64,000 bases of DNA, taken from NCBI RefSeq assembly GCF_932294415.1, contig NC_065536.1, forward strand, positions 53,664,354 through 53,728,353, in the 5' to 3' direction. The translations under genes and the position numbers were made by a program. The notes under the pieces are model-generated. The model worked only from the letters and a program-made list of their open reading frames with translations. It ran no database searches and was not told the DNA's origin. Positions 12,895-56,660 of this stretch are shown here, in pieces. This stretch comes from Quercus robur (Eukaryota; Streptophyta; Magnoliopsida; Fagales; Fagaceae). Positions within the stretch are counted from its first letter, which is position 1, and the number at the start of each line of letters is the position of its first letter.

Positions 12895-14240
12895 AACTTA
12901 AATATCAAGTTTTGGACAGAACCAAGGTATTGCATGGTCCTCGGACTCAAACCTATAGGGAAACCAACTACTTAAATATCAAGTTTTGGACAGAACCAAA
13001 GTATTGCATGGTCCACGGACTCAAACCTATGGGGAAACCAACTACTTAAATATCAAGTTTTGGACAGAACCAAGGTATTGCATGGTCCTCGGACTCAAAC
13101 CTATGGGGAAACCAACTACTTAAATATCAAGTTTTGGACAGAACCAAGGTATTGCATGGTCCTCGGACTCAAACCTATGGGGAAACCAACTACTTAAATA
13201 TCAAGTTTTGGACAGAACCAAGGTATTGCATGGTCCACGGACTCAAACCTATGGGGAAACCAACTACTTAAATATCAAGTTTTGGACAGAACCAAGGTAT
13301 TGCATAGTCCTCAGACTCAAACCTATGGGGAAACCAACTACTTAAATATCAAGTTTTGGACAGAACCAAGGTATTGCATGGTCCTCGGACTCAAACCTAT
13401 GGGAAAACCAACTACTTAAATATCAAGTTTTGGACAGAACCAAGGTATTGCATGGTCCATTGACTCAAACCTATGGGGAAACCAACTACTTAAATATCAA
13501 GTTTTGGACAGAACCAAGGTATTGCATGGTCCTCGGACTCAAACCTATGGGGAAACCAACTACTTAAATATCAAGTTTTGGACAAAATCAAGGTATTGCA
13601 TGGTCCTCGGACTCAAACTTATGGGAAAACCAACTACTTAAATATCAAGTTTTGGACAGAATCAAGGTATTGCATGGTCCACGGACTCAAACCTATGGGG
13701 AAACCAACTACTTAAATATCAAATTTTGGACAGAACCAAGGTATTGCATGGTTCTCGGACTCAAACCTATGGGGAAACCAACTACTTAAATATCAAGTTT
13801 TGGACAGAACAAAGGTATTGTATGGTCCACGGACTCAAACCTATGGGGAAACCAACTACTTAAATATCAAGTTTTGGACAGAACCAAGGTATTGCATGAT
13901 CCTCGGACTCAAACCTATGGGGAAACCAACTACTTAAATATCAAGTTTTTGACAGAACCAAGGTATTGCATGGTCCTCGGACTCAAACCTATGGGGAAAC
14001 CAATTACTTAAATATCAAGTTTTGGAGAGAACCAAGGTATTGCATGGTCTTCGGACTCAAACCTATGGGGAAACCAACTACTTAAAAATCAAGTTTTTGA
14101 CAAAACCAAGGTATTGCATGGTCCTCGAACTCAAACCTATAGGGAAACCAACTACTTAAATATCAAGTTTTGGACAGAACTATAGTATTGCATGGTCCTC
14201 GAACTCAAACTTATGGAGAAATCAGCTACTTAAGAAGAAT
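12895..14240 (+). repeat. 74-bp tandem array (about 18 units) in the LTR element
   Basis: The unit containing AATATCAAGTTTTGGACAGA and CCTATGGGGAAACCAACTAC repeats with a strict 74-bp period (12901, 12975, 13049 and on). Most units differ at only a few positions. The last two units are more diverged. The core reappears, reverse-complemented, in the element at 32977-38259. Confidence 0.95.
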
Positions 14241-15396: not shown

Positions 15397-16126
15397 TCCC
15401 GCTCCTATCGTGGACGAATCACAATTCAAAGTGTAAGCGAGCGGGTAAGGGAAACTCTGGGGGAGGCTAAGAGTTTTCAGACTTTAAAAGGATTGAAAGG
15501 TCTCTGTGTAAGAGAGGTAACCTCCTACTTTCCTTCTTATATGAAGGGCAAACCGGGAGGCATTTAATCTGTCCAAATTTCTAAGAAAATCGGTAAACAA
15601 GAATATACCCATTCCACTTCCCCACGCCGTTAATAACCGTCGAATTTAAATGGTCTCGTAAAGGAAAATCATTAAAGGCACGTTTCGGATAATGAAGCGG
15701 CAGGAACGCATCATGAATGAATTCAAAGGAATATCTCGTAGTCCGGTATGTTTCCTGAATAGGTAAAGAGACACCCACATTGATGAAGGGCAGATCTAAG
15801 CAGATCGTAATAAAGGCGTGGCATTACCAAAACCCTCCTCTCCGACCAAGAGGTCGAACAACAGGATTTTGAGGGGCTATTGTGGGGTCCAATAATTTGT
15901 GGTCCTGGCCCATTTTTACATTGTGGCCCAAGGCCCGAGCCGAGGATAGGTAATAGAAGTCCAAATAGTCTTGAGACACAGCCGAGAATGATTCTGTCCT
16001 CGGCATATCCGAGGTCTCACTGGAAGGAAGGGCAAAAACGGTATAGGAACAGCTTGGAAAAAATCTAAAATATCTAGGTCAATAGAGAAGGGTACGCTGG
16101 AAAGTATAACAACCAGGAAAAGCTGC

Positions 16127-34424: not shown

Positions 34425-35366
34425 GAGTTAGGATTGAGGCAGGGACTAAATGCCCCGGCTTCTTCCTCTCTTCGTTCACTAGCGCCATCCTTTACTTTTC
34501 TTTCTTCTTCTTTCCACCACCAGCTCCGTCCTGGTGTTTTTCTTTCTCCCTCTTTTGCTCCTTTCTCTTTCTTTTCATTTCTTCCCTCTTCTTCTCCTCC
34601 TTCTCTTGCTCATGTCCTCCATCTTCTTTTTCCCTTGCACTCCTCAGCGACAAGAGCTTGCTGAAGTGCTTCCATGTGTTCCAATTCTTCTTCCTTCTCC
34701 TTCATCTTTTCTATAAAAGGTTCTTCTCCTGATATGAGCAGTACTGAGGCAGAGAATTTAGAGAGACTTCGAAGGCGAGTTTAAAGGACACTTGACGGTT
34801 TACTTATCTGTATTACGGATGTTATTACTGCTTCGGCAGTTCATTTTTTGTATAGGCTTGCTTAAGCCCTTCTTTGTACGTTGTAATAATTTTTTATATT
34901 AATAAAAGTTACTGTTATTCTATTTCGCATGTTCTGTTTATATGTTTTAATAAATTTGCAAGTTCTGCTCGGCACAGTAATATAGCATTTGAACCAATGA
35001 CAACTAAGGCCAAAATACTTGCTAATAAAAAGACGCCATAATAACTTTAACAAAATTATTATTCGACATAACAATCCGACCAGTGAGGAACGAGACTTAC
35101 CTTAAAATTAGTCGAGATGGGGACTAAGTGTTCGATAAGGTGTAAGAAGTAGTTATCCGAGGACATGTCACCTTCCCAATGAACAATTTCCTTAGGCTAA
35201 CGATCATCAGTTCGTTTCGCCCTCTTCTTAACACACTGGCTTTAACTTTTTCCCGTATTTGAGCCGAGAAACTTCTCCATCCGAGCAGTTGATTTCCCAA
35301 AAGGCCTGAGTCCGAGGACTTCGCAAAGCCTGGGTTTTATTTAAAACTTACGCTTTTTCTTTTATG

Positions 35367-35640
35367 TACTTGGCTTCCCCATAGACTTGAGTCCGAGGAC
35401 CATGCAAGCCCTAGGTTCTGTCCAAAACTTTTATGTCCTTGGTTTCCCCATAGGCTTGAGTCCGAGGATCGTATAAGTCCCAGGTTCTGTCCAAGACTTT
35501 TATGTCCTTGGTTTCCCCATAGGCTTGAGTCCGAGGATCGTACAAGCCCCATGTTCTGTCCAAGACTTTTATGTCCTTGGTTTCCCCACAGGCTTGAGTC
35601 CGAGGATCATACAAGCCCCAGGTTCTGTCCAAGACTTTTC
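35367..35640 (-). repeat. 69-bp tandem array (about 4 units) in the LTR element
   Basis: The unit with CTTGGTTTCCCCATAGGCTTG and GTTCTGTCCAAGACTTTTATG recurs at 35367, 35436, 35505 and 35574. It is the reverse complement of the core of the 74-bp array at 12895-14240, with a shorter spacer. Confidence 0.9.
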
Positions 35641-36333: not shown

Positions 36334-36919
36334 AGAAAGCCCCTCAACTTCCCACTCCCTGCACCTTTCCTTCAACGGTGTCAGGTTCAAGTTGGGTCTC
36401 TTTGGATGTTTGAGTTGTGGGCATGAGAGAGCATTGAGGAAGAACAGGGTCTTGGAGCTGTAGCCAACCTCTCCTCTGATCTACTTTCTCGGCTTTATCT
36501 TATTCTCTTGTATCTTCCTTTCTTTTTGGTTATGTAGTGAGCTTTGACACGAACTGATTCCAGCTTTTCATTGTACGCTGTACTATTTCTTTGTTCTAGT
36601 AAAAATAGAAATTTATGCACATGTTTTGAGTACTGATCTTTTGGCAACATTATTTTGTGAATGGGTGTGCCTCATGTGTGTGTCTCTTCAGGAATACTTA
36701 GAGCAGGATAGCTTAAAACATAATCTAACTAACTCCAATTTATCAATACCATCAGGCAATATATCGATAATTCATAGTAAATCAAACTTGGGAAACTAAC
36801 CGGGATAGCAGCTGAATATTCTGTGATAAGCGCGTGAATACCGTCCAAGGCTGATAATCTCTAAATAATCCATCCGAGCAATCGACTGGGAAGTAGGGAA
36901 CTCCGATGGTGCTTTTGTG

Positions 36920-37240
36920 TACTTGGTTTCCTAATAGGCTTGGGTCCGAGGACCATGCAATGCCTTGGTTCTGTCCAAAACTTGTAAGATTTCTTTTTTG
37001 TACTTGGTTTCCCCATAGGCTTGGGTCCGAGGACCATGCAAGGCCTTGGTTCTGTCCAAAACTTGTAAGATTTCTTTTTTGTACTTGGTTTCCCCATAGG
37101 CTTGGGTCCGAGGACCATGCAAGGCCTTGGTTCTGTCCAAAACTTGTAAGATTTCTTTTTTGTACTTGGTTTCCCCATAGGCTTGGGTCCGAGGACCATG
37201 CAAGGCCTTGGTTCTGTCCAAAACTTGTAAGATTTCTTGT
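36920..37240 (-). repeat. 81-bp tandem array (4 units) in the LTR element
   Basis: The unit TACTTGGTTTCCCCATAGGC to TAAGATTTCTTTTTTG recurs at 36920, 37001, 37082 and 37163 with very few differences. Its core is homologous to the 74-bp and 69-bp arrays. Because unit length is a multiple of three, several reading frames stay open through the array. These frames are not genes. Confidence 0.92.
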
Positions 37241-38259
37241 TTAGTAGTCTTTTCTCTATACTTATTTATTTTTCGAAGGTCAGCCCCTAAGCCAGGGAGG
37301 GGAGAGTTGGCTTGAGGCTGGAAGCCCCTAGAGCTGCCCGCGTCGTTAGCGGTGCAAGGCGTAGCCCCTAGCAGAAACTTATGGCGGAGCAACAACTGCA
37401 CGTCGCCGGAGATGGAAAAGACTCGTGAATCTCTGCTTGCTAGAAAGCTGACTTATGCGCCACCCGCGCCAACGCGCAAGCCTTCCCACAGACGGCGCCG
37501 ATTGTAGGGACACGAATCTCTAACGGCCCAACAATGATGTTGGGCTCGCCTACAGAAAATTCCTTACAATGATATTTGTAGAGAGTGGGCTTGAAAGGCC
37601 AGCGTTGGGTCATAGAGCGCTAGTTCAGGCCGGACTTTAGATGAACCAAGACAAGAAAAGGCTTTAGTCTGGATATTCAGACCTTACACCTTTGTGACTT
37701 GAGGGATTTGGCTCCTCGGATCATGTCCGAGGAGCACTAATGTTTTCTCCGGTTACCCGACGGTGGGTTTTTCGGGGTGATGCGCATATATTATCCGGGA
37801 ATTCTCCTTCCTGAAGTTTTTCTCAGGAAGTGAGATGGGAGAGCCCCCCCCCTACTTCGTTACCTTACGCTTTCTTTTATACTAGCCTACGTTCGTTGTC
37901 CCTCATCCACGTGTAGGGTCGATTTTTCCGGGACAGATATTTGTCCCATCAATCTAATCCCGAAATTGTTGGAGATGATCAATAAAGCCTAAGAATCCGG
38001 CTCTGTTAGGTGCAGAGTCTTATCAGTGAAGGGTATTAAGGACAATTTCCCTGAGATATTTTCTGATCTTTAGGGTTTGCCCGTATGCCACTTTCATCAA
38101 TGAGACTTTGGGTCTGCCGAGGACCAAGCTGTCCTCGGCTGTATCCCCGGGCCATTTTGAGCTTCTTATCTTTGGACTTGGGCCCTGGCCTCCTTTAGTT
38201 TGGACCTGTGGACTCCCCATAAGCGAGCGGGCCGGGCCCCTAAACTATTGGACCCCACA

Positions 38260-45215: not shown

Positions 45216-45799
45216 TCAATGTTTGATACAATCTACAAACACGACATAGGATTTTATAGATTAGAGTTGGACCTTAACGAATTCGAGTCATAAACGGATC
45301 GACTCAAAAGCAACACAATAAGAAACGTGTTATAAAGTAGAAAACCCATGTTGATGGTATATGCAGCTGTGATCTGCCAAACACCTACATCCCATGTTGG
45401 TAGACCTACGATGGTGGCAAGGTCTGAGGAGAGGGAGAGAGAGAGAAAAGTGAAAGTGACTAATGAGAGAGTGAAGGTCAATAATAAAAGAGAGAGAATA
45501 AAAAGACAATAAAAATTAAAATTAAAAGAAAAAAGAAAAAAAAGAAAAGAAAGAAACCTACTGCAGGTACAAGTACCCCATTTACTATATCAGCTAAATT
45601 TATTTTAGCAATAGCAACCTAGGAAACGGTAATTTTGGGGGTCATCCTTCTGTACCCCTCTTTTTTTTTAGGGGTACGGTACCCACCTAATTTTTAGCCA
45701 TTTGATTTACTTGTTTTAATCTTAGCCGTTTGTATGATTTTAATAGGATATCAGTTACCGGTCAGTCAGGTTAACATATAAAACCCAAAAAAAAAAAAA

Positions 45800-46560
45800 A
45801 CAACATACGGTTCTTCTTCTTCTCTCGCATCTGATCTGATCTGATCTGAAGCGAGTTCCTGTGGGTTCTTCTCTTTCGTCGTCTCTTCTCTCCAACCTTC
45901 ATTGTTGATGTTCTTAGGTAAATCACTGAACCTATTTTTTGGCATCTGTATCTTTACAATCTAGAGTCTCTAAATTTCTTATAGCATTCATTTAGGGATT
46001 TTGATTCTTAACCCTTTTCCTCTATATTTGTTGAAGTTAGGGAAAAACCCTAGTGGTCTGTGTGCATGCCATGGATTCTGTCTCTTCCATCAATTGTAAA
46101 TTTGAATCACAAAATATTGATAGGATTGTCTAGGTTTATTTGTGCCTCTGTGGGTTTTGTTTGATTTGTTTATGTCCAGTAGATTTTGGGAATCATCGCT
46201 CGGGACAGAGGAAATAGAGGAACAGAGCAAGAAAACAACAGAAAGGAGGAACATGCGGAGAATACAGCGAAACCCACATCGGAAAGCGAGTCAATTTCAG
46301 ATCAAGAATCGAGGATAGCTCCCGAAACCGAGAAAAAGTTGGAGTTTTTGAAAGAATTCGAAGGTTCAATTAAAGAAAGATTCCTCAGCTCCTCAAACAT
46401 TGAAGAATTGAAAGCTGTAGATGTCTCTGTAGGGCCTCTCATACTCACAAGGTGTAAATCAGAACCAGCAAGAACCGGAGAGAAGCTTGATCCAGACTCT
46501 AATTTCTGGAAAAGAAGAAGGTTGGGTCTCATTGGTTCACACTCACAACCTGTTTTGTGA
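45800..46560 (+). pseudogene. Captured host-gene 5' region and exon ('RCKSEP' protein)
   Basis: A CT-rich leader at 45806-45915 ends in a splice-like AG/GTAAAT (45919). After an intron-like stretch, an open frame runs 46183-46560 from a CAGTAG acceptor. Its product ends VGPLILTRCKSEPARTGEKL followed by DPDSNFWKRRRLG. The LTRCKSEP.RT..KL.P...FWK.R pattern occurs at the C-terminus of a plant-specific protein group of unknown function (from memory). There is no in-frame ATG in this exon, and the splice I can propose from the leader gives an early stop. I therefore read it as a captured fragment, not a working gene. Confidence 0.5.
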
Positions 46561-49278
46561 TTAAATCCATTATTATAATTTCTATCTCTTTTATTTTATT
46601 TTTTTACTGAATTGAAAATATTTTTGGGCAGCTGAATTTGGAATTGGTTTTTTTTTTTGTTTAATATTGAAAAAAAGAAATACATGTGGAGCTATATATA
46701 TAGGAGAGAATCTCTATGGCTCTATGGTAATATAAAAAGGTAAGTTTGGTTGTACACCGAAAGCTGAAAGAAATGAAATAGGTGTGTTCATCTATATCTA
46801 TCTATGTGCTTTGCTTTGCTCTACCACTCCTCATGGGCAGCTGTCTGTATTTACTACTTTTTATTTGTTTGTGTCATTTAAATCAATTTGTGTTTTTCAA
46901 CGAATTTCATGGAACTGGAAGTTTGGGACTGTTCTCAGTGTTTTCTACTTTTGCTTTATGGACTAGTTTGGGGTAATGGGATTTTGATTAATATAATAAG
47001 CATCTTTGGATACTCTGACCAACTTCAATATTTGTTGAAAGCCTATGTGTATAATAGCTTTATGAGGTGACCCCCACATCCCACATCTTATTGTAATACA
47101 TGTTCATATCTCTGACTGTTTGATATTTAGGGGTTTATCTATAGTATAAAGAATAATAAATATGAAACATGATTCTAATTTTTTTAATGGGGGCTAGTTT
47201 GCCACTTTGCCTCTTTTTTTTTCTTGTTTTCAGAGAATTGCAATTAAGATTTTTGACCTCTTGTTTACTTTCAACTTTTAAAGATTTGTTGATCAAAAAG
47301 TATGGTCTAAAGGTTCTATGATTAATGTCTAAAATGTGAAAGGTACGTGATCAGGTCATTGTCTTATAGCTTTTGGATATTTCATTTAAGGATGATTAGG
47401 GAACATAATCCATCATCCATTTCATAATTCACATTAGATAAGAAACATAGGGTGGAAAATTTTCGTTTGAGCTAAACTTCTTTGATTCAGACCACTTTAC
47501 AAAGATTAGGTTGAGATAATTGAAACCTGGTTCAGGGCATGTTTGCCTTAAGTTTATTTTTCTTATTTTTATAAATTTTATTCAGCATAGGGACATCTAT
47601 TTATCTTAACTTTACTGGTTGGAGTAATTTAAAAACTGCAACTTGAGACCAAAATTCTTTAATTGTCAATATGCCAAAGTTGAAAGTGAAGAACCAACAG
47701 GGAGTTACCTAATCACTTATGACAAACAGGAAAAGTGAATTTCATAATCATAATACAGATCCAAAAGCCAAACAAGCAGATGATAAGAAAAATTATCAAA
47801 GCATTCATTTTGAAGTGTGCTTTGTTGCAATTTCTATCCAGTACAATGTAAGTTATAAGGTATGTTGTGTTACAGCTCTGCCAATTTGCATATGTATGTT
47901 GTACTGTGTGATGTCAATATTATTTAAAAGATTATATTGTTTGTAGAAAAGTTTGTTATTTTAGAACTTAATAATGCAGAGCATAAGTTTTAAGTTTTTG
48001 AAGTGTTTTGCTCTCCAATTAAGCTATTCTGTTAGGATTTGTGCACTTGCCTTTTTTTTTTTTAACAGTTATAGGTTCTTAAATCTGATTCTCTATATTA
48101 ATTTTTCGGACCATTCATTGATGTTATTGTTTAATTCTAGCTCATCATAAGTAGGAGTCAACCTCATGAAAATCTGTCATGTAAGCATTTATCCATCTAG
48201 CTCTCTCTTGCATTCAATGCTTTTTTTGGGATATAAGCATCCAACCTAAACCCAAAGCTGTTTTATCCTTGTTATTGAAAAATTATCAATTATCAATTAT
48301 CTAATTATAGTTGATAATTAGAATGACATCCATGTAAAAAGATAACATCTGGAATGCATATACACATACAATTGAAGTCCATGTAACAAGACCAAGCTCT
48401 AAAACAAAGCTGAAACATTGATATGCACCTACAATCATTTACATTATTACTCAACTTTCAGATAATAAGAAACCTCTCAAAGGTTCATTATATGATTATA
48501 TCATTTTTTTAGCATGTTGTTGTTTACTAGATTTTTTATTTATTTAATAAACTTATTATATATGATTTTGAATTTGCTGATATTGTCAGGTTGAACTAGA
48601 TGAGCCAAAGTTCTTGAATAATAATAGTTATATAAATAAATATCTAAGGCTCTATGCAAAGAGATTTGCTCTTATGAACATCTCCTTTTTTTTCAAGCTC
48701 TAATAGTTATATCATGTAAATGCAGATATTTCTGTTGCTAATGGAGTTGCAGAAGGGATAATAAGAAATTCCTACGAGTTAGAAGTTTCCCCAATTTAGA
48801 ACTTAAGAATGAATGAGCCAGAAATGCATATGCTTATGATTGTCTCTTTTTTCAATTGATGCCATGATGGTATTCAAATATAGATGTGAACAAGACACAT
48901 TGTAGTGGATATCTTTTTAAATGATTTTTTTCCCTTTTTAGATGGATTTCTTTGTAGTTTGTCTGCTTCTTTTAGATACTTTGCAACAAGTGACCGGCTT
49001 GTAGTTCAAGAAAGTGAGTTATATATCAATTCAAGTTATAAATATTATGAGATGAAAACTACCATATTTAGATCCAAGTGCAAGTAGGTGGTCTGATTTC
49101 TTTGGATCATCTATGGCACATTCAAATAGAATTAGTGAATTTTGTTATTTCAAATGTGAATTTATGGAAAAGTGATTTCTTAGTAAACAAATTGTGGCAT
49201 ATACATATGGAATATTTCCCTTGTCATTATATTAGTGGTATACTTCTCGATTTTAACTAACCTAGTAATCATAATAGA
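46561..49278. other. Interior of the 9-kb MULE, no gene recognised
   Basis: AT-rich, intron-like sequence. Short open exon-like bits bounded by AG (for example 48729-48800 and 48942-49016) have no recognisable family. They may be more of the captured gene. Confidence 0.4.
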
Positions 49279-49287
49279 TTTAATATA

Positions 49288-51102
49288 GGCGAAAATGCAC
49301 TTTTGGTCCCTACATTTTGGGCCTTGTTACAATTTGGTCCCTAAATTGATTTAGGTCCTAAGTCAGTCCCTGATTTTCAAAAATCGTTTTTAAAATAGTC
49401 CCTACCGTCAACCCAGTGACAGAAAATGCTGAGGTGGTAAACAGCGTGCCCTACTTGTTTTGTTGACATGGCGCTGACGTGGATAATAAAATATTATTAA
49501 AAAAAACTTATTTAGCATTTTTGAAATGCCACATCAAATTTAAATTAATAAAAAATTAAAACAAAATTCCAGGTCAGAATTTTTAAAATAAATAAATAAA
49601 TAAACATTAATTTAGTTAAATTAAGAAAAAAAAAAGTTTTTTCAGTTTAAAAATTTGAGTTTAAAAAATGGGTTTGTTTTTCATTATTTTTCGGAAGAAC
49701 ATTGTTCTTCTTCTTCCCCAGGACATGAACTTCATGCTTCATGTTCTTCCCCAAATCAAACCCAATAAATCCAAAAAATCAAACCCATAAACATCCGGTA
49801 AATCAAACCTAATAAATCCAAGAAATCAAACTCATAAACCACCCAATAAATCTAAGAAATCAAACCCATAAACATCCAGTAAATCAAACCCAATAAATCC
49901 AAGAAATCAAACCCATAAAACTCTAGTAAATCAAACCCAATAAATCCATGAAATAAATATACAAATCCACATCAAAAAAAGAAAAAAAAAAAAAAAAGAA
50001 AAAAAAAACCACAAGCACAAAACCAAACTCACCGAGACAACTCCATCTCCGAAACACAAACATGGCCACACCAATCTCCACGGCCACACCAATCTCCACC
50101 TCCACTATCGACCACCCACTCCTACAGAAACCCAGAAAAAAGCAGCTGTATCTCCGGCTCAACAACCACCCTTGCTACTTCACCACCAGCTCATGCTCCG
50201 ACCGTATCTCCATCCTCTCCCAACCCATACACCAAACCCAACCCAACAAAAAATCCAAATGCTCCGGCCGTATCTCCATCCTCTCCCAACCCGTACACCA
50301 AACCCAACCTAACAAAAATCCAAAGGCGGCTCCTGGCTCTTCGTCTCCCACGACCCAGCCGATCCCGACTCGGTCATCTCCCTCCTCTTCCCCGAGTCAC
50401 CAACTCGCTCCGAACCCGAGTCCGAACTCGTCCTCCGCTTCGAACCGCTCATCGTCGCCGTGGAGTGCAAAGACCTCGCCTCAGCTCAATCGCTGGTCTC
50501 CACAGCGAGGTCGGCCGGGTTCAGAGATTCCGGCATAACCAACGCGAACAACAAGCACGTGATCGTCGCGATCCGCTGCTCGATCCGGCTGGAGGTTCCG
50601 TTGGGGACCACCGAGTCCGTCATGGTCTCGCCGGAGTTCGTTCTCAAATCGTCCACGTGGCTAACGAGAAAATGGAAGAGACAGAGAAAGAGAGGATCTG
50701 GAAAAAAAGAAGAAGAAAGGAAACGAAAAGAAGAAAGATACAGAGAAATAGAGAATCTGAAAAAGTTTTTTCTTTTTTTTGTTTTTGATTTTGAATTTTT
50801 TCAGTTTAATTTTTTTAAAATTATTTTTATTTTTTTATTAATTAAAATGCTGACTTGTCATTAAAACGCTGACATGGATGCTGACCTGGTATTTTTAATA
50901 ATATTTTAATATCCACGTCAGCGCCATGTCAGCAAGTAGGACACGCTGTTTGCCACATCAGCATTTTCTGTCACTAGGTTAACGGTAGGGACTATTTTAA
51001 AAACGATTTTTGAAAATCAGGGACTGACCTAGGACCTAAATCAATTTATTGACCAAATTGTAACAAGGCCCAAAATGTAGGGACCAAAAGTGCATTTTCG
51101 CC
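49288..51102. mobile_element. Nested Pack-MULE, 1.8 kb
   Basis: Long terminal inverted repeats of about 210 bp (49288-49500 and 50892-51102) start GGCGAAAATGCACTTTTGGT. They are flanked by the exact 9-bp duplication TTTAATATA (49279-49287 and 51103-51111). The interior has a diverged tandem repeat of about 56 bp (about 49740-49950) and a GC-rich host-gene fragment (TYW3 domain). No transposase. This is the standard structure of a Pack-MULE, nested in the 9-kb MULE. Confidence 0.9.
50062..50700 (+). pseudogene. Captured TYW3-domain fragment (tRNA wybutosine synthesis)
   Basis: Three frames in order show the plant TYW3 domain. Frame of 50062: LNNHPCYFTTSSCSDRISIL, with the CS(D/G)RISILSQP segment duplicated. 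Frame of 50334: WLFVSHDPADPDSV, FRFEPLIVAVECKDL, GFRDSGIT and VIVAIRCSIRLEVPLG. Frame of 50465: VANEKMEETEK. The native domain sits at the N-terminus of the plant TYW2/3/4 fusion protein, which makes wybutosine at position 37 of tRNA-Phe. Two frame changes and the internal duplication mean this copy cannot make an intact domain. GC content is far above its surroundings, as expected for captured coding DNA. Confidence 0.82.
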
Positions 51103-51111
51103 TTTAATATA

Positions 51112-51779
51112 TTTAGAAGTAAAATCTACCCCCACCTCATTGTGTTAAATACATGTAAGTGCTCTATTAACTTGTTGGAATAACTCATAAAGCCTAGTTT
51201 GCCTATCCAAAAATCTATTCAAAAAGGCATTCATGGTTTCACAATGTTGTGTAGTCTTGTCCCGAGAAAAAAATGACTTCTCATGTAAGATAATCTTTTG
51301 CATGAATGTGCATGATTGTCCATAATATCTAGATTGATTATGATTGTCCTCTCCATTGATAATGATTATAATGGAACAATAAAAATTATTTTTAGCAATA
51401 TGATAAATTCATATTTTGCAAGTTCAAGTTGTTACTAATAGCAAATTATTAGTTGGCTATGATGACAGATTTTTACCCATTATCTTGTCAATTAGGTTAT
51501 CAATGGCTTTTTCATTACCTCGTGTATCTATTAAAAATGTTACTAAAATTAAAATGTAGAAGGTTTAAGAAAAATAATAATTGGAAAATATATTTTATGA
51601 TCTTAAATTCAAATTCAAATTTAGGTATCCAAACAATGAAATTTCAAATCATTCGTTATATAAGAAGACCCAAATACGGAATTTTAAAATTAATAGATTT
51701 CAAAGCAGGGCATTTTACATCCTTGGTTCAAAATAATCCAAATCCAAATGTTGCCATCCAAATGAATTTCAAATATTTC
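51112..51779. other. Interior of the 9-kb MULE, no gene recognised
   Basis: AT-rich. An open frame at 51453-51827 is Lys/Asn/Ile-rich with no family features and is probably chance. Confidence 0.45.
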
Positions 51780-52205
51780 GGTAATTTTTTAGGTTCTAAG
51801 GTAATCTGGTCATTATTTAGGTTTTAGGGGTTTTCGGTAATTTTCTAGGTTTCAAGGCTATTATAGTCATTTTTTAGATTCTAAGGGTTTTTTTTTTTTT
51901 TGGTCATTTTTTATGTTCTATTGGTATTTCGGTCATTTTATAGGTTTTAATGGCATTATAGTCATTTTTTTGGTTTTAAGGGTATTTCGGTCACTTTTAG
52001 GTTTCAAGAGGTACTTCGATAATTTTTTAGGTTTTAGGGTCATTCGGTCATTTTTTAGGTTCTAAGGGTATTTTAATTATCTTTTAGGTTCTAAGAGTAT
52101 TCCGGTAATTTTAGAGGATTTCGAGGGTATTTGGGCCATTTTATAAGTTTCAGAGTATTTTAGTCATTTTTAAGATTTCTAGTCATTTTGGTCATTTGTG
52201 GCAAA
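51780..52205. repeat. Degenerate 35-40-bp tandem repeat
   Basis: The unit GGTCATTTTTTAGGTTCTAAGGGTATTTC recurs about ten times with many substitutions and small length changes. Confidence 0.8.
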
Positions 52206-54540
52206 AATACTATCATATGTAATGTTTGTGCTACTTAATGTGATAATAAAACCATCAAATGTGAGGAAAAATAAAATAAAATGAGGAAACTATCGAATGT
52301 GACAAAAGTACTGTCACATGTGATGTTGGTACTGTCCAATGTGACGATGGAACTGTTAAATGTGAGTAAAAATTAAAGTACCATCGAATATGAGAAAAGT
52401 ACGGTCAAATAAGATGTTAGTATTGCTCAATGTGACAATGAAACCATCAAATGTGAGGAAAAAAAAATAAAGGAATCACCGAATGTTGTGATGGTGGTAG
52501 CTTCCACTGAATGTGATGGAAGCTACCAAGGGAGATATGTAGGAAGTTAATTGGTATACCAATTAAGTGTGGAAGAAACCAAGATAAATCCAGCTGATTT
52601 TTTTTGTGAACAAAAGTAATTATTGTGGTTGGGCTAATTTCTTGGGATGCCTTTTTTTTTTTTTTTTTTTTTTTTTGGTTTTTAGATCTAAATTTTTTAA
52701 TAACTTAAAAAAAAAAATTACTATTGTGATGAGCGGTTATTAGTAAGTAAAAAAGTGATTTCAGTGGTGGGCCCAAATGTAAAATTATGGTCAGATGTGA
52801 TATTGGTACTATCTACTGTGATGATTGAACTATCAATTGTAAGAAAAAAAAAATAGGGTACCACCAAATTTGACAAAAGTACAATTAGAAGCGATGTTGG
52901 TACTGCCCAATGTAATATTAGAACTGTCAAATTTGAGAATAAAAAATAGGGTACCACTAAATGTGACAAAAATAGAGTTAGATGCGATGTTGGTACTACT
53001 TAATGTGACAATGGAACCATCAAATTTGAGAAAAAAAATAAAGGAACCATTATATGTGACAGAACAACTGTCAAATTTGATATTGAAACAGCACAATGTG
53101 ATAATGGAACCATCAAGTTTGAAAAATAAATAAAGGAACCACTAAATGTAACAAAAGAACTGCCAAATGTAATGTTGGAACTACACAATGTAACGATGGA
53201 ACCGTCAAATGTGAGAAAAAAAAATAAGAGAACTACCGAATGTGACAAAAGAACTGTCAAATATGATATTAGAACTGCACAATGTGAGGACGGAAGCGTT
53301 AAATGTGAGAAAAAAGTAAGAGAAACACAAAATGTGAGAAAAGAACTGTCACATGTAATGTTGAAACTACACAATGTGGGGATGAAACTGTCAAATGTGA
53401 GAAAAAAAATAAGAGAACCACCGAATGCGACAAAAGAACTGTCACTTGTGATGTTGAAACTACATAATATGAGAATGAAACTGTCAAATGTGAGAAAAAA
53501 AGTAAGGAAACTAACCAATGTGACAAAAGAACTATCACATGTGACAAAAATAGAGCAGATGTGATGTTGGTACTGCTTAATATGACAATGAAATCATCAA
53601 ATTTGAGAAAAAAAATGAAGGAACCACTATATGTGACAAAAGAATTGTCAAATGTGATATTGGAACTGCACAATGTGATAATGAAACCGTCAAATGTGAG
53701 AAAAAAAATAAGGAAACCACCGAATGTGACAAAAGTACAGTCACATGTGATGTTGGTACTGCGCAATGTGAGGATGGTACCATAAAATGTGAGGAAAAAA
53801 ATAAGGGAATCACCGAATGTGACAAAAGTACAGTCACATGTGATGTTAGTATTGTGCTTTGTGAGACTGGTACCATAAAATGTGAGGAAAAAAATAAGAG
53901 AACTACCGAATGTGACAAAAGTACAGTCACATATGATGTTAGTACTGTACAATGTGAGGATAGTACCATCAAATGTAAGAAAAAAAAAATAAAGGAACCA
54001 CCAAATGTGACAAAAGTACAGTCACATGTGATATTGGTACTGTACAATGTGAGGATGGTGCCATCAAATGTGAGAAAAAAATAAAGGAACCACCGAATGT
54101 GACAAAAGTACAGTCACATGTGATGTTGGTACTGTGCAATGTGAGGATGGTACCATCAAATGTGAGAAAAAAATAAGGGAATCACCGAATGTGACAAAAG
54201 TACAATCACATGTGATGTTAGTATTACATAATGTGAAGATGGTACTATCAAATGTGAGAAAAAAAAAAAAAACCATCGAATGTGACAAAAGTACAGTCAC
54301 ATGTGATGTTAATACTACACAATGTGAGGATGGTACCATCAAATGTGAGAAAAAAAATAAAAAAACCACCAAATGTGACAAAAATACAGTCACATGTGAT
54401 ATTAGTACTGCACAATGTGAGGAAGGTACCATCAAATGTGAGAAAAAATAAGGGAACCACAGAATGTGACAAAAGTACAATCACTTGTGATGTTAGTACT
54501 ACACAATGTGAAGATGATACTATTAAATGTAATGTTTTGG
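52206..54540. repeat. 93-bp minisatellite, about 25 units
   Basis: The unit contains GAATGTGACAAAAGTACAGT, CACATGTGATGTTGGTACTG, AATGTGAGGATGGTACCATC and AAATGTGAG with an A-run. The period is 92-95 bp (for example TGTGAC at 53725, 53818, 53911, 54006 and 54098). Units at the right are most alike and those at the left most diverged, so the array probably expanded from the right. Many overlapping open frames on both strands result from the period of about 93 (divisible by three) and are not genes. Confidence 0.93.
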
Positions 54541-54796
54541 TAACCTAATATAGCAGGTTGCCTACTAGTGGGTACCGTACCAAAAAAAAAAGAGGGGGTA
54601 ACGTAGAATTACCCTAATTTTGGGTGTGAGTTTCTAAAATGTTAATGCTCTAAATAAATAATAGTAGACTTTTAAATATTCTTTTTTTTAAGAAAGTATG
54701 ACTTTTTAATTTCCCCCAAAAAATATGGCGCGTTGGGGTAGTGTTGGTTAGTGGCAGCGGCGGCTGGTTGAAGGCCCACTATCTCTCCCTCGCTCT

Positions 54797-54840
54797 CTCT
54801 ATATAACTAAAGATTCCCCACTCACCTCTACAGCTACACA
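54797..54840 (+). promoter_or_regulatory. Core promoter of the SufE-like gene
   Basis: CTCTATATAACTAAAG with the TATA box at about 54800-54806, preceded by a CT-rich stretch. An expected start near 54830-54840 gives a 5' UTR of about 185 nt. The right end of the 9-kb MULE (54614) is only about 185 bp upstream of this TATA box. Confidence 0.65.
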
Positions 54841-55019
54841 CAACACAAGCTCTTAGATTCAGACAACAAACGACGCGCTCTTTAAGGATCTCCCTCCCAT
54901 TTACTAGCGCTCTCAACTATTCTATTCTTAACCAACTCTCTCTCTCTGACTTTTCACTTTCTCTTACATTAATTTTACTACTATACATTTTTTATTTTTT
55001 GTTCCTCAGAAACAACAAC

Positions 55020-55682
55020 ATGGTATCTGGTCTAACAACAACAACACTTTCTCTTTCTTCATCATCTTTTTTGTTTGGTTTTAGTTCCCTGAAATTTTCG
55101 CAGCGAACTAGGTTGAAGTTTATAGACAACGTGAACGAAAGAAAATTCACGTTCGCGCCTTTGAAATGCATTCGCGTATCGGGTTTCGATTCGTGCTCCG
55201 CCTCGACGGCGACGGAGGCTCCGTTAGCTCCGTCGTCGGAGCTGGTGTCCGACAAGCTCCACCGCCTGGCGACGGAGTTCAGGGCCCTGCACGAGCCAAT
55301 CGACCGGGTGAAGCGGCTGCTGCACTACGCGGCGATTCTTCCTCCGGCGGACGAGTCGAGGACTCGGGCGCCGGAGAACCGGGTCACGGGGTGCACGACC
55401 CAGGTGTGGGTGGAGGCCGAGTTGGACGAGTCGGGTCGGGTTCGGTTCCGGGCCGACAGCGACTCGGAGATTTCCAAAGGGTTCTGCTCGTGCTTGATTT
55501 ACGTGCTGGACGGGGCGGATCCGGAGGAGGTGGCCATGGTCAAGGCCGACGACTTGTCGGATTTGAACGTGGGCTTGCACGGCAAGTCGCATTCTAGAGT
55601 CAACACGTGGCACAATGTCCTCGTTGCTATGCAAAAGAGGGCCAAGGCTTTGCTTCCACAACAACCTCAGGTTAATTATTAG
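55020..55682 (+). CDS. SUFE2: SufE-like protein, plastid-targeted (SUFE2 type)
   Basis: Single-exon frame of 220 residues. Residues 1-60 are Ser/Thr- and Arg-rich with almost no acid, as in a plastid transit peptide. The SufE domain spans about 75-212: LATEFRALHEPIDRVKRLLHYA, the active-site Cys125 in RVTGCTTQVWV (the persulfide acceptor in SufE), RVRFRADSDSEISKGFCSCL, and LGLH-type helix DLNVGLHGKSHSRVNTWHNV. SufE takes sulfur from the cysteine desulfurase (NFS2 in plastids) and activates it for Fe-S cluster assembly. There is no C-terminal BolA domain (SUFE1) or NadA domain (SUFE3), so SUFE2 fits best. The start is the first ATG after the predicted leader. The coding GC is much higher than its flanks. 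The last codons (CAG/GTTAAT) include a possible splice donor, giving an alternative C-terminus. Confidence 0.9.
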   Translation: MVSGLTTTTLSLSSSSFLFGFSSLKFSQRTRLKFIDNVNERKFTFAPLKCIRVSGFDSCSASTATEAPLAPSSELVSDKLHRLATEFRALHEPIDRVKRLLHYAAILPPADESRTRAPENRVTGCTTQVWVEAELDESGRVRFRADSDSEISKGFCSCLIYVLDGADPEEVAMVKADDLSDLNVGLHGKSHSRVNTWHNVLVAMQKRAKALLPQQPQVNY

Positions 55683-55744: not shown

Positions 55745-56660
55745 TCGGTTTTGGAATTTTGTTGTTTACTTTTGATGATGCATTAATAGTGTGAATAGGG
55801 AACAGTGAAAAAAGGGTAACTTTTTTTATTTTATTTTTTATGTAACTAGTAATAGAAGAAATGTATAAGATTTTATATCGTGAATGATCTTTAGGTCAAT
55901 GGACACTTTATTTTTTTAATTTTATTTTTTATGTAACTAGAAATAGAAGAAATGTATAAAATTTTGTATCGCGAATGATCTTCAGGTCAAGGGGCACTTC
56001 TAGTTGTTTTTATCGGAAATGTTCAAGTTCAAATCTCATTCCTCCACTTAACATGTATCCACACAAAAAAAAGATATATAAAAGATATTGAAGTATTAGA
56101 TTTGTTGTTTACTTTGATGGCGTTATAGATGGATGAGTTGGTATGTGAAGTTTTAGATTTTTTTCTGTATGCGTTGGTACTGTTTTTGTGTGAATAGGGA
56201 ATAGAGAAAAAAGGTTAATTTTTTATGTAACTAGAAATAGAAGAAATATACAATATTTTGCATCGTGAATGATCTTTAGGTTAACGGGCACTTTTGGTTG
56301 TTTTCAATTCAAATCCCCCTCCTCTACTTAAGATGTATATACAATAAAAGATATATAGAAGATATTGAAGTATTAGATTTGTTGTTTACTTTGATGGCGT
56401 TATAGATGGATGAGTTGGTAAAAGAATGTGAAATTTTAGATTTTGTTATGTATGAGTTGGTAGTGTGAATGGGGAATAGGGGAATTTTTTTTTTTTTTTT
56501 TTTTATAAGTGTATTTATTATGTAATTAGAAATAGAAGAATTGTAATTTTCAAAAAATGAAATAGAAGAAATATTTGAGATTGCATCACCAATAACTGTT
56601 TCTGTAAGAGATGTCCAAGGTTCAAATTCCCCTCCTCCACTTAAGATGTGTAAAAAATGA
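55745..56660. repeat. Three diverged direct repeats of about 290 bp
   Basis: Blocks with TTTGTTGTTTACTTTGATGG, GTGTGAATAGGGAA, TATGTAACTAGAAATAGAAG and AATGATCTTTAGGT recur in the same order from about 55757, 56102 and 56377. An extra partial copy of the middle part is at 55915-56000. Short B-box-like words (GTTCAAATC with CTCCTCCACTTAA) end each unit, so an old SINE may be part of the repeat. Confidence 0.6.

Follow-up and report, generated by a model that had tools for sequence, protein, structure and literature searches.

Pack-MULEs are Mutator-like elements (MULEs) that combine terminal inverted repeats (TIRs) and a 9-bp target-site duplication (TSD) with foreign DNA in their interior, and insertion just upstream of a gene is typical of them. 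Mutator-like elements are recognized more broadly by TSDs of 8-11 bp and by TIRs, for which the accessible part of one paper gives a range of 14-500 bp in the group (PMC6446971). Tandem repeats are a feature of several described systems: in Arabidopsis VANDAL MULEs, repeats in noncoding MULE DNA are tied to methylation (accessible parts of PMC5735166 and PMC10398659); Rehavkus, an animal Mutator group, is listed in the group table of PMC6446971, within its accessible part, with a 9-bp TSD and a minisatellite; and foldback-type MULEs, such as Aedes Muta and Meloidogyne Tm1, show TSDs of 8-10 bp, subterminal tandem repeats and variable interiors, as far as the accessible sections of the reports extend (PMC5225508, PMC3169594). 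Here, we describe an element of about 9 kb that resembles each of these systems in part and lies in a 64,000-nt stretch of Quercus robur contig NC_065536.1 (the window; all coordinates are positions within this whole stretch, and the genome searched is a 786-Mb plant genome). Taken as a whole, it is very probably a non-autonomous, modular Mutator-like insertion with a methylation-targeted minisatellite array, which later received a Pack-MULE carrying a TYW3 gene fragment.

A recent Mutator-like insertion upstream of a SufE-domain gene

An earlier note on this DNA had proposed a Mutator-like element of about 9 kb with an exact 9-bp TSD and 48/47-bp inverted ends around a common core, and both proposals are borne out by the boundaries, the termini and the sister copies. 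The outer element (Table 1) is bounded by exact copies of TAATTTTGG, and its imperfect TIRs, which start with GGGTCATCC on the left and GGGTAATTC on the right (reverse complement), have GGTACGGTACCCAC in common. In a scan of the window for inverted 14-mers containing 7 or more G/C and separated by 0.5-20 kb, the sole pair linking both element ends was the one in the TIRs, and ten shuffled windows gave one inverted pair of any kind in the first and none in the other nine.

These boundaries recur across the genome. The family termini (GGGTMATTCTMCNGTACCCC ends) have 124 exact 20-bp matches and the reversed control none. The counts of matches to the two end queries are lower bounds. Among the best 40 of 112 left-end candidates, 27 matches start at query base 10 (= 45639) and 30 at base 9 or 10, the others, window included, starting at bases 1, 4, 5, 22, 32 or 56; on the right side (40 scored of 247 candidates), 23 of the 41 listed matches have their end at query base 115 (= 54614), the rest apart from the window ending at bases 113-122. 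Right ends were located for 10 of 20 left-end copies taken with 10 kb each (L009, L010, L011, L012, L014, L015, L017, L018, L024 and L026; L numbers are our handles for loci, C numbers for contigs), which, together with three pairs from both end lists (C40:50678, C4:57493, C3:49531), eight from the pattern list (for C38:14954968, the right end was taken from the right-end match list) and the window, gives 22 left/right pairs. Exact 9/9 TSDs flank 10 of these (the window, L009, L011, L012, L017, L026, C40:50678, C4:57493, C4:74646872 and C37:63141272) and 8/9 TSDs another four (L014, L018, L024 and C5:45595940), while C38:14954968 has an exact 10-bp TSD, GAGTGGGTTG, which was read by eye because the fixed register gives only 3/9. 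Other copies of the ends with duplications of 8-10 bp were thus found in the same genome, in 15 of the 22 pairs, and the cross-pair flank control reached 8/9 in 3 of 462 comparisons and 9/9 in none. The nearest sisters are ~1% diverged outside the array and the nested element (with the final 84 bp excluded as well, L009 differs from the window by 0.7-1.3%). As also noted earlier, the element appears to be without a transposase: no such domain was found in the 12 of its 30 open reading frames (ORFs; at least 70 amino acids, aa) that were scanned, though a degenerate transposase may be present, and the element is taken as non-autonomous because of these scans. The 9-kb segment is real: a plant transposon that jumped recently, inserted as a Mutator-like element of the non-autonomous kind.

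The insertion site has a counterpart elsewhere in the same genome. The left flank (45300-45638) has one good match, at C37:14439884-14440339 (79% over 1-298 and 90% over 226-339), and this locus also carries a paralogue (85%) of the SufE-domain gene downstream of the element. When L072, the stretch taken from this locus, is compared with the joined flanks, the left flank runs through a single TAATTTTGG and the element is absent; after a stretch that does not align, the alignment resumes with the promoter, the leader and the start of the coding sequence. L072 is therefore an empty site on its left side and by gene order, with the immediate right side unaligned. The empty site with one TAATTTTGG that had been envisaged for a related genome or allele was accordingly found in part, at a paralogous locus of the same genome and on the left side, and neither of the outcomes that the earlier note had named as fatal to its reading was observed. 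The outer element sits ~175 bp upstream of the TATA-like site (54800) of the SufE-domain gene, which we take to be possibly of the plant quinolinate synthase type. A 91-bp tandem repeat follows the SufE ORF at 55821-56013, with a third, diverged copy at ~56200-56300 by eye.

Modular anatomy of the family

Copy comparisons led us to a subfamily grouping of our own: A (the window, L009-L012, L016 and L028), B (L013, L014, L017, L020 and L027), C (L015 and L018, with L019 and L023 as the nearest members of a tandem cluster that also holds L022 and L025), D (L021 and L024) and E (L026). The subfamilies have parts of the first ~120-540 bp in common and differ in their interiors. Of the 21 left ends tabulated, 20 have a TATAAAA box in this left module (L028 was omitted from the table because its left end is truncated); the box lies at +139 to +143 in 18 of them and mostly precedes an A-run and a pyrimidine-rich leader; we regard the left module as a putative promoter. 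The clustered left-end copies L019, L022, L023 and L025 (C35:49.83-49.87 Mb) have near-identical left flanks, which suggests local duplication of an inserted element. L010 (C5:12226150-12236149) is a deletion derivative in which most of the nested element through to the array is gone, leaving an A/T-rich junction.

The other recurrent part is a minisatellite on the right. In agreement with the earlier claim that a minisatellite reaches almost to the right end, the window array of ~22 units, with a break near 52480-52770, stops 84 bp from the right terminus. The array lies 71-84 bp from the right terminus in 9/9 complete elements, whose right ends were located by TIR alone. The 2414-bp L045 has 8 units, making up ~1/3 of the element and ending at 85 bp, and L073 has 17 units ending 77 bp from the right terminus. 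Additionally, 12/12 right-end loci carry the array, which stops 83-89 bp short of the terminus and shows 4-16 units in the sequence covered; the query for these loci included 31 array bases, four of the loci are among the nine complete elements, and L012 is represented by its right end as L039. At L042 (C6:26695700-26696000), the right terminus of L024 and its flank are tandemly repeated ~100 bp further on. The 109 units of subfamily A and the 96 units of five other copies have near-identical consensus sequences. The minisatellite and the promoter-like left module are thus recurrent parts of the family rather than chance cargo, a point that the earlier note had missed.

The array invites several readings. 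Its unit length is a multiple of 3 and open frames reach 286 aa in L009 and 289 aa in L045, as would be expected of a protein-coding repeat of 31 codons, a reading to which we give almost no credence: spacings of 91, 92, 94, 95, 101 and 113 bp repeatedly break the frame and, of two frames scanned, one had no Pfam match and the other reached E 0.0062 at 16.2 of 140 bits, far below the cut-off. The array might instead represent amplified transposase-binding sites, by analogy with the foldback-type MULEs, since subterminal tandem repeats lie in the TIRs of Aedes Muta and nematode Tm1 (accessible sections of PMC5225508 and PMC3169594). This is improbable, because the array stands at one end only and its kinship to the TIR is rejected, with 364, 106, 341 and 93 of 500 shuffles reaching the scores in four comparisons between TIR and unit. 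A block of poly(A) signals was likewise tried and is not supported (AATAAA 11 times vs 7.0 expected, shuffle maximum 16).

Interiors and the nested TYW3 Pack-MULE

Captured host DNA, a further claim of the earlier note, is demonstrated in the window copy for the TYW3 fragment of the nested element only. The exon-like ORF at 46183-46560 had no Pfam match above the cut-off (best E 0.032), and no donor gene was identified among the 13 genome places that match it, the window being one. Of the other 12, seven lie in copies L009, L010, L011 (twice), L012, L016 and L028, one (C2:45868964) lies ~2 kb from a left-end match, L052 and L054 are rearranged element pieces, and L053 (58 bp, 86%) is of ambiguous origin; C35:3543042 was left out of inspection. 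L045 holds a leucine-rich-repeat-like ORF fragment similar to the solved chain 4u08_A (E 1.1e-9), which is presumably a leucine-rich-repeat protein. In eight complete copies, ORFs of at least 130 aa all lie within the array or the nested element.

The nested Pack-MULE, also foreseen from the sequence alone, has its own TIRs (arms of ~211-216 bp starting with GGCGAAAATGCAC), TSD and empty site: L028 has a single TTTAATATA, and the flanks align on both sides. Its TYW3 part is found at 18 genome places, the window copy included, which assigns it to a distinct repeat family. The 1.8-kb Pack-MULE with the TYW3 fragment entered later, in an insertion event separate from that of the outer element.

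A C>T scar concentrated in the array

Mutations among five subfamily-A copies (the window and L009-L012) were compared after exclusion of columns within 10 bp of gaps. The array has 67 C>T/G>A, 12 T>C/A>G and 7 transversion singletons in 1438 columns, and the unique left part 25, 9 and 16, respectively, in 3066 columns. For C>T changes in the CHH context (H being A, C or T), the array has 53/421 and the unique region 9/807, an ~elevenfold contrast (Fisher p=1.7e-17), with the transversion rate equal between the two under this gap guard (p=1). In 5/5 copies the array exceeds the unique part in the density of C>T plus G>A singletons, most weakly in L009, and pairs in subfamilies B and C gave CHH transition odds ratios of 5.8, 4.6 and 5.3. 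The transition:transversion ratio is 144:31 between sister arrays vs 157:95 among units of the window array (p=8e-6), a difference that speaks against unit exchange as the sole cause. Such spectra suggest past dense non-CG methylation, strongest in the array and, if this methylation was chronic, the array may be a target of silencing and anti-silencing.

Whether the array has a function of its own can be read in two ways. An ordinary Pack-MULE family, in which the founder's minisatellite is passive cargo passed on by descent, without a role for the element, and the C>T scars stem from the silencing that tandem repeats undergo in general, is a serious possibility, though we stop short of calling it probable. 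The kinship of all members could account for the common array, tandem repeats can be targets of RNA-directed DNA methylation (RdDM; accessible part of PMC10398659), the nested element shows raised C>T as well, and the published motifs of VANC are not enriched in the array: on the + strand of 2334 bp, YAGTATTAY occurs once (shuffle mean 0.0, maximum 1) and AGTTGTMC not at all, and on the - strand both counts are 0. Harder to reconcile with passive cargo are the constancy of the array and its distance from the terminus while interiors differ between subfamilies, and its retention in an element as short as L045 and in L073, despite a left module there that is only ~74% alike. The array could alternatively be a VANC-like silencing/anti-silencing hub, where the ATGTGA-headed 21-bp subunits would be bound by a factor from an autonomous partner that counteracts RdDM, a reading that we put forward tentatively. 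The CHH signature in three subfamilies fits this reading, as does the 21-bp spacing of ATGTGA (59 observed vs 7.1 expected, a count that restates the repeat), and the accessible parts of PMC5735166 and PMC10398659 describe the targets of VANC as tandem repeats that lie in noncoding DNA of MULEs and overlap RdDM targets. It is weakened by the VANC21 and VANC6 motifs being absent or near chance and by the failure to find an autonomous partner among the listed MULE-domain matches.

Weighing the favoured reading

We favour a reading in which a Pack-MULE-type DNA transposon inserted just upstream of the SufE-domain gene with a 9-bp duplication, presumably by cut-and-paste with a transposase supplied in trans. 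Complete copies of the family are built from a left module whose TATA box faces inward, an interior that varies and, on the right, a minisatellite of ~93-bp units followed by a terminus of 71-89 bp. The mutation spectra suggest chronic targeting of the array by cytosine methylation of the non-CG, RdDM type, and the array is probably a regulatory platform at which host silencing would meet a factor from an autonomous partner.

Several results weigh against parts of this reading. Two of the 22 pairs reach only 7/9 (C2:77811536 and C39:5395981), the TSD of L010 is uninterpretable in an ambiguous AT run, and four pairs have no TSD (L015, C3:49531, C4:25486493 and C37:44876342), of which the last two, with ends ~18 and 22 kb apart, are probably mispaired. 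At the empty site, ~147 bp of the window (~200 bp of L072) to the right are unaligned. TATAAAA is absent from L024 and L073, the latter having TATATAAA instead. Eight of the 20 left-end copies (L016, L019-L023, L025 and L027) show no array match within 10 kb, and right ends were found for none of the eight. Without the gap guard and with all variable columns, the CHH contrast shrinks to 105/630 vs 26/944 and array transversions are higher (31 in 2333 vs 28 in 3621 columns); in the subfamily B and C pairs, transversions are up 1.9-, 1.4- and 2.9-fold (p=0.067, 0.41 and 7.6e-5), the 2.9-fold rise belonging to subfamily C. The nested element is raised too (CHH 16/401, CG 26/132), and so the scar is not limited to the array. 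Additionally, MULE-domain matches are plentiful in the genome (1249 candidates), none being tied to the outer-element ends, and no autonomous partner was found when 150 listed matches were compared with 100 listed of the 124 termini; by eye, the only listed match within 14 kb, C1:27967601, lies 13 kb from the terminus C1:27980950, which is about chance level by rough estimate.

A wider proposal, which we find rather doubtful, is that of an expression-cassette family with its own promoter, exchangeable cargo and an obligatory minisatellite switch between silencing and anti-silencing, convergent with VANC-target repeats and able to insert in host promoters, the copy next to the SufE-domain gene being an example. 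Should the array prove to be a functional control region, this would be an independent case of a MULE with a repeat platform in a methylation arms race, and the family concerned also mobilizes gene fragments, placing them behind a ready promoter. Past RdDM targeting could, moreover, be deduced from sequence alone by means of the CHH-deamination scar. The array varies in length and presence among copies, so its role is directly testable.

Table 1. Features of the outer element and its surroundings in the window.
Feature	Position	Strand	Remarks
Left TSD, TAATTTTGG	45630-45638	.	single copy at paralogous empty site L072
Outer element	45639-54614		8976 bp
Left TIR, GGGTCATCC...GGTACGGTACCCAC	45639-45686	+	
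Left module	45639-46174	+	TIR, TATA box, pyrimidine-rich leader, intron-like stretch; partly common to other subfamilies
TATAAAA box	45777-45783	+	inward-facing
Exon-like ORF	46183-46560	+	125 aa between stop codons; seen in subfamily A and its derivatives
Nested-element left TSD, TTTAATATA	49279-49287	.	
Nested Pack-MULE	49288-51102	+	1815 bp; TIRs, 9-bp TSD, empty site
Captured TYW3 gene fragment	50316-50681	+	Pfam PF02676, 1.4e-31
Nested-element right TSD	51103-51111	.	
Degenerate ~29-bp tandem repeats	51776-52197	+	adjoining main array
Minisatellite	52197-54530	+	~93-bp units of ATGTGA-headed subunits spaced ~21/21/21/30 bp
Right terminal segment	54531-54614	-	84 bp; contains right TIR 54568-54614
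Right TSD, TAATTTTGG	54615-54623	.	
Host gene, 5' part	54807-55682	+	SufE domain; ATG at 55020, TATA-like site at 54800

Elsewhere in the window, arrays of 74-, 69- and 81-bp units occur at 12896-14233, 35359-35639 and 36912-37242, the consensus of the first resembling, by eye, the reverse complement of the other two, and inverted 14-mers at 15881/33720 and 16386/33377 suggest an inverted repeat pair ~20 kb apart.

Comparison with known systems

In the open-access literature, we found no report of this architecture of module, cargo and minisatellite, a weak negative. Rehavkus differs from the oak element in its arthropod and annelid hosts and in the table entry 'Minisatellite in Cterm' (accessible part of PMC6446971); with regard to its PHD-finger transposase, no transposase ORF was found here, and a non-autonomous copy would lack one anyway. 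The repeats of foldback-type MULEs are 9-15 bp long and lie within the TIRs (accessible sections of PMC5225508 and PMC3169594), at both ends, whereas the ~93-bp units described here form an array toward the right end only, inside a short TIR.

Pack-MULEs come close to both elements. The nested one has a host gene fragment (TYW3) between TIRs, and the outer one has the 9-bp TSD, TIRs, foreign DNA in its interior and no transposase in the ORFs scanned; unlike Pack-MULEs, the outer family has a fixed promoter-like left module and a fixed one-sided minisatellite in complete copies. For a host gene fragment outside the nested element, the candidates are the exon-like ORF and, in the relative L045, the leucine-rich-repeat-like fragment. 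To our knowledge, VANDALs are without TIRs, unlike the outer-element family. The likeness to VANDALs lies in tandem repeats of noncoding DNA that are linked to methylation. Without any claim of homology, the array may resemble the Arabidopsis VANDAL repeats in function.

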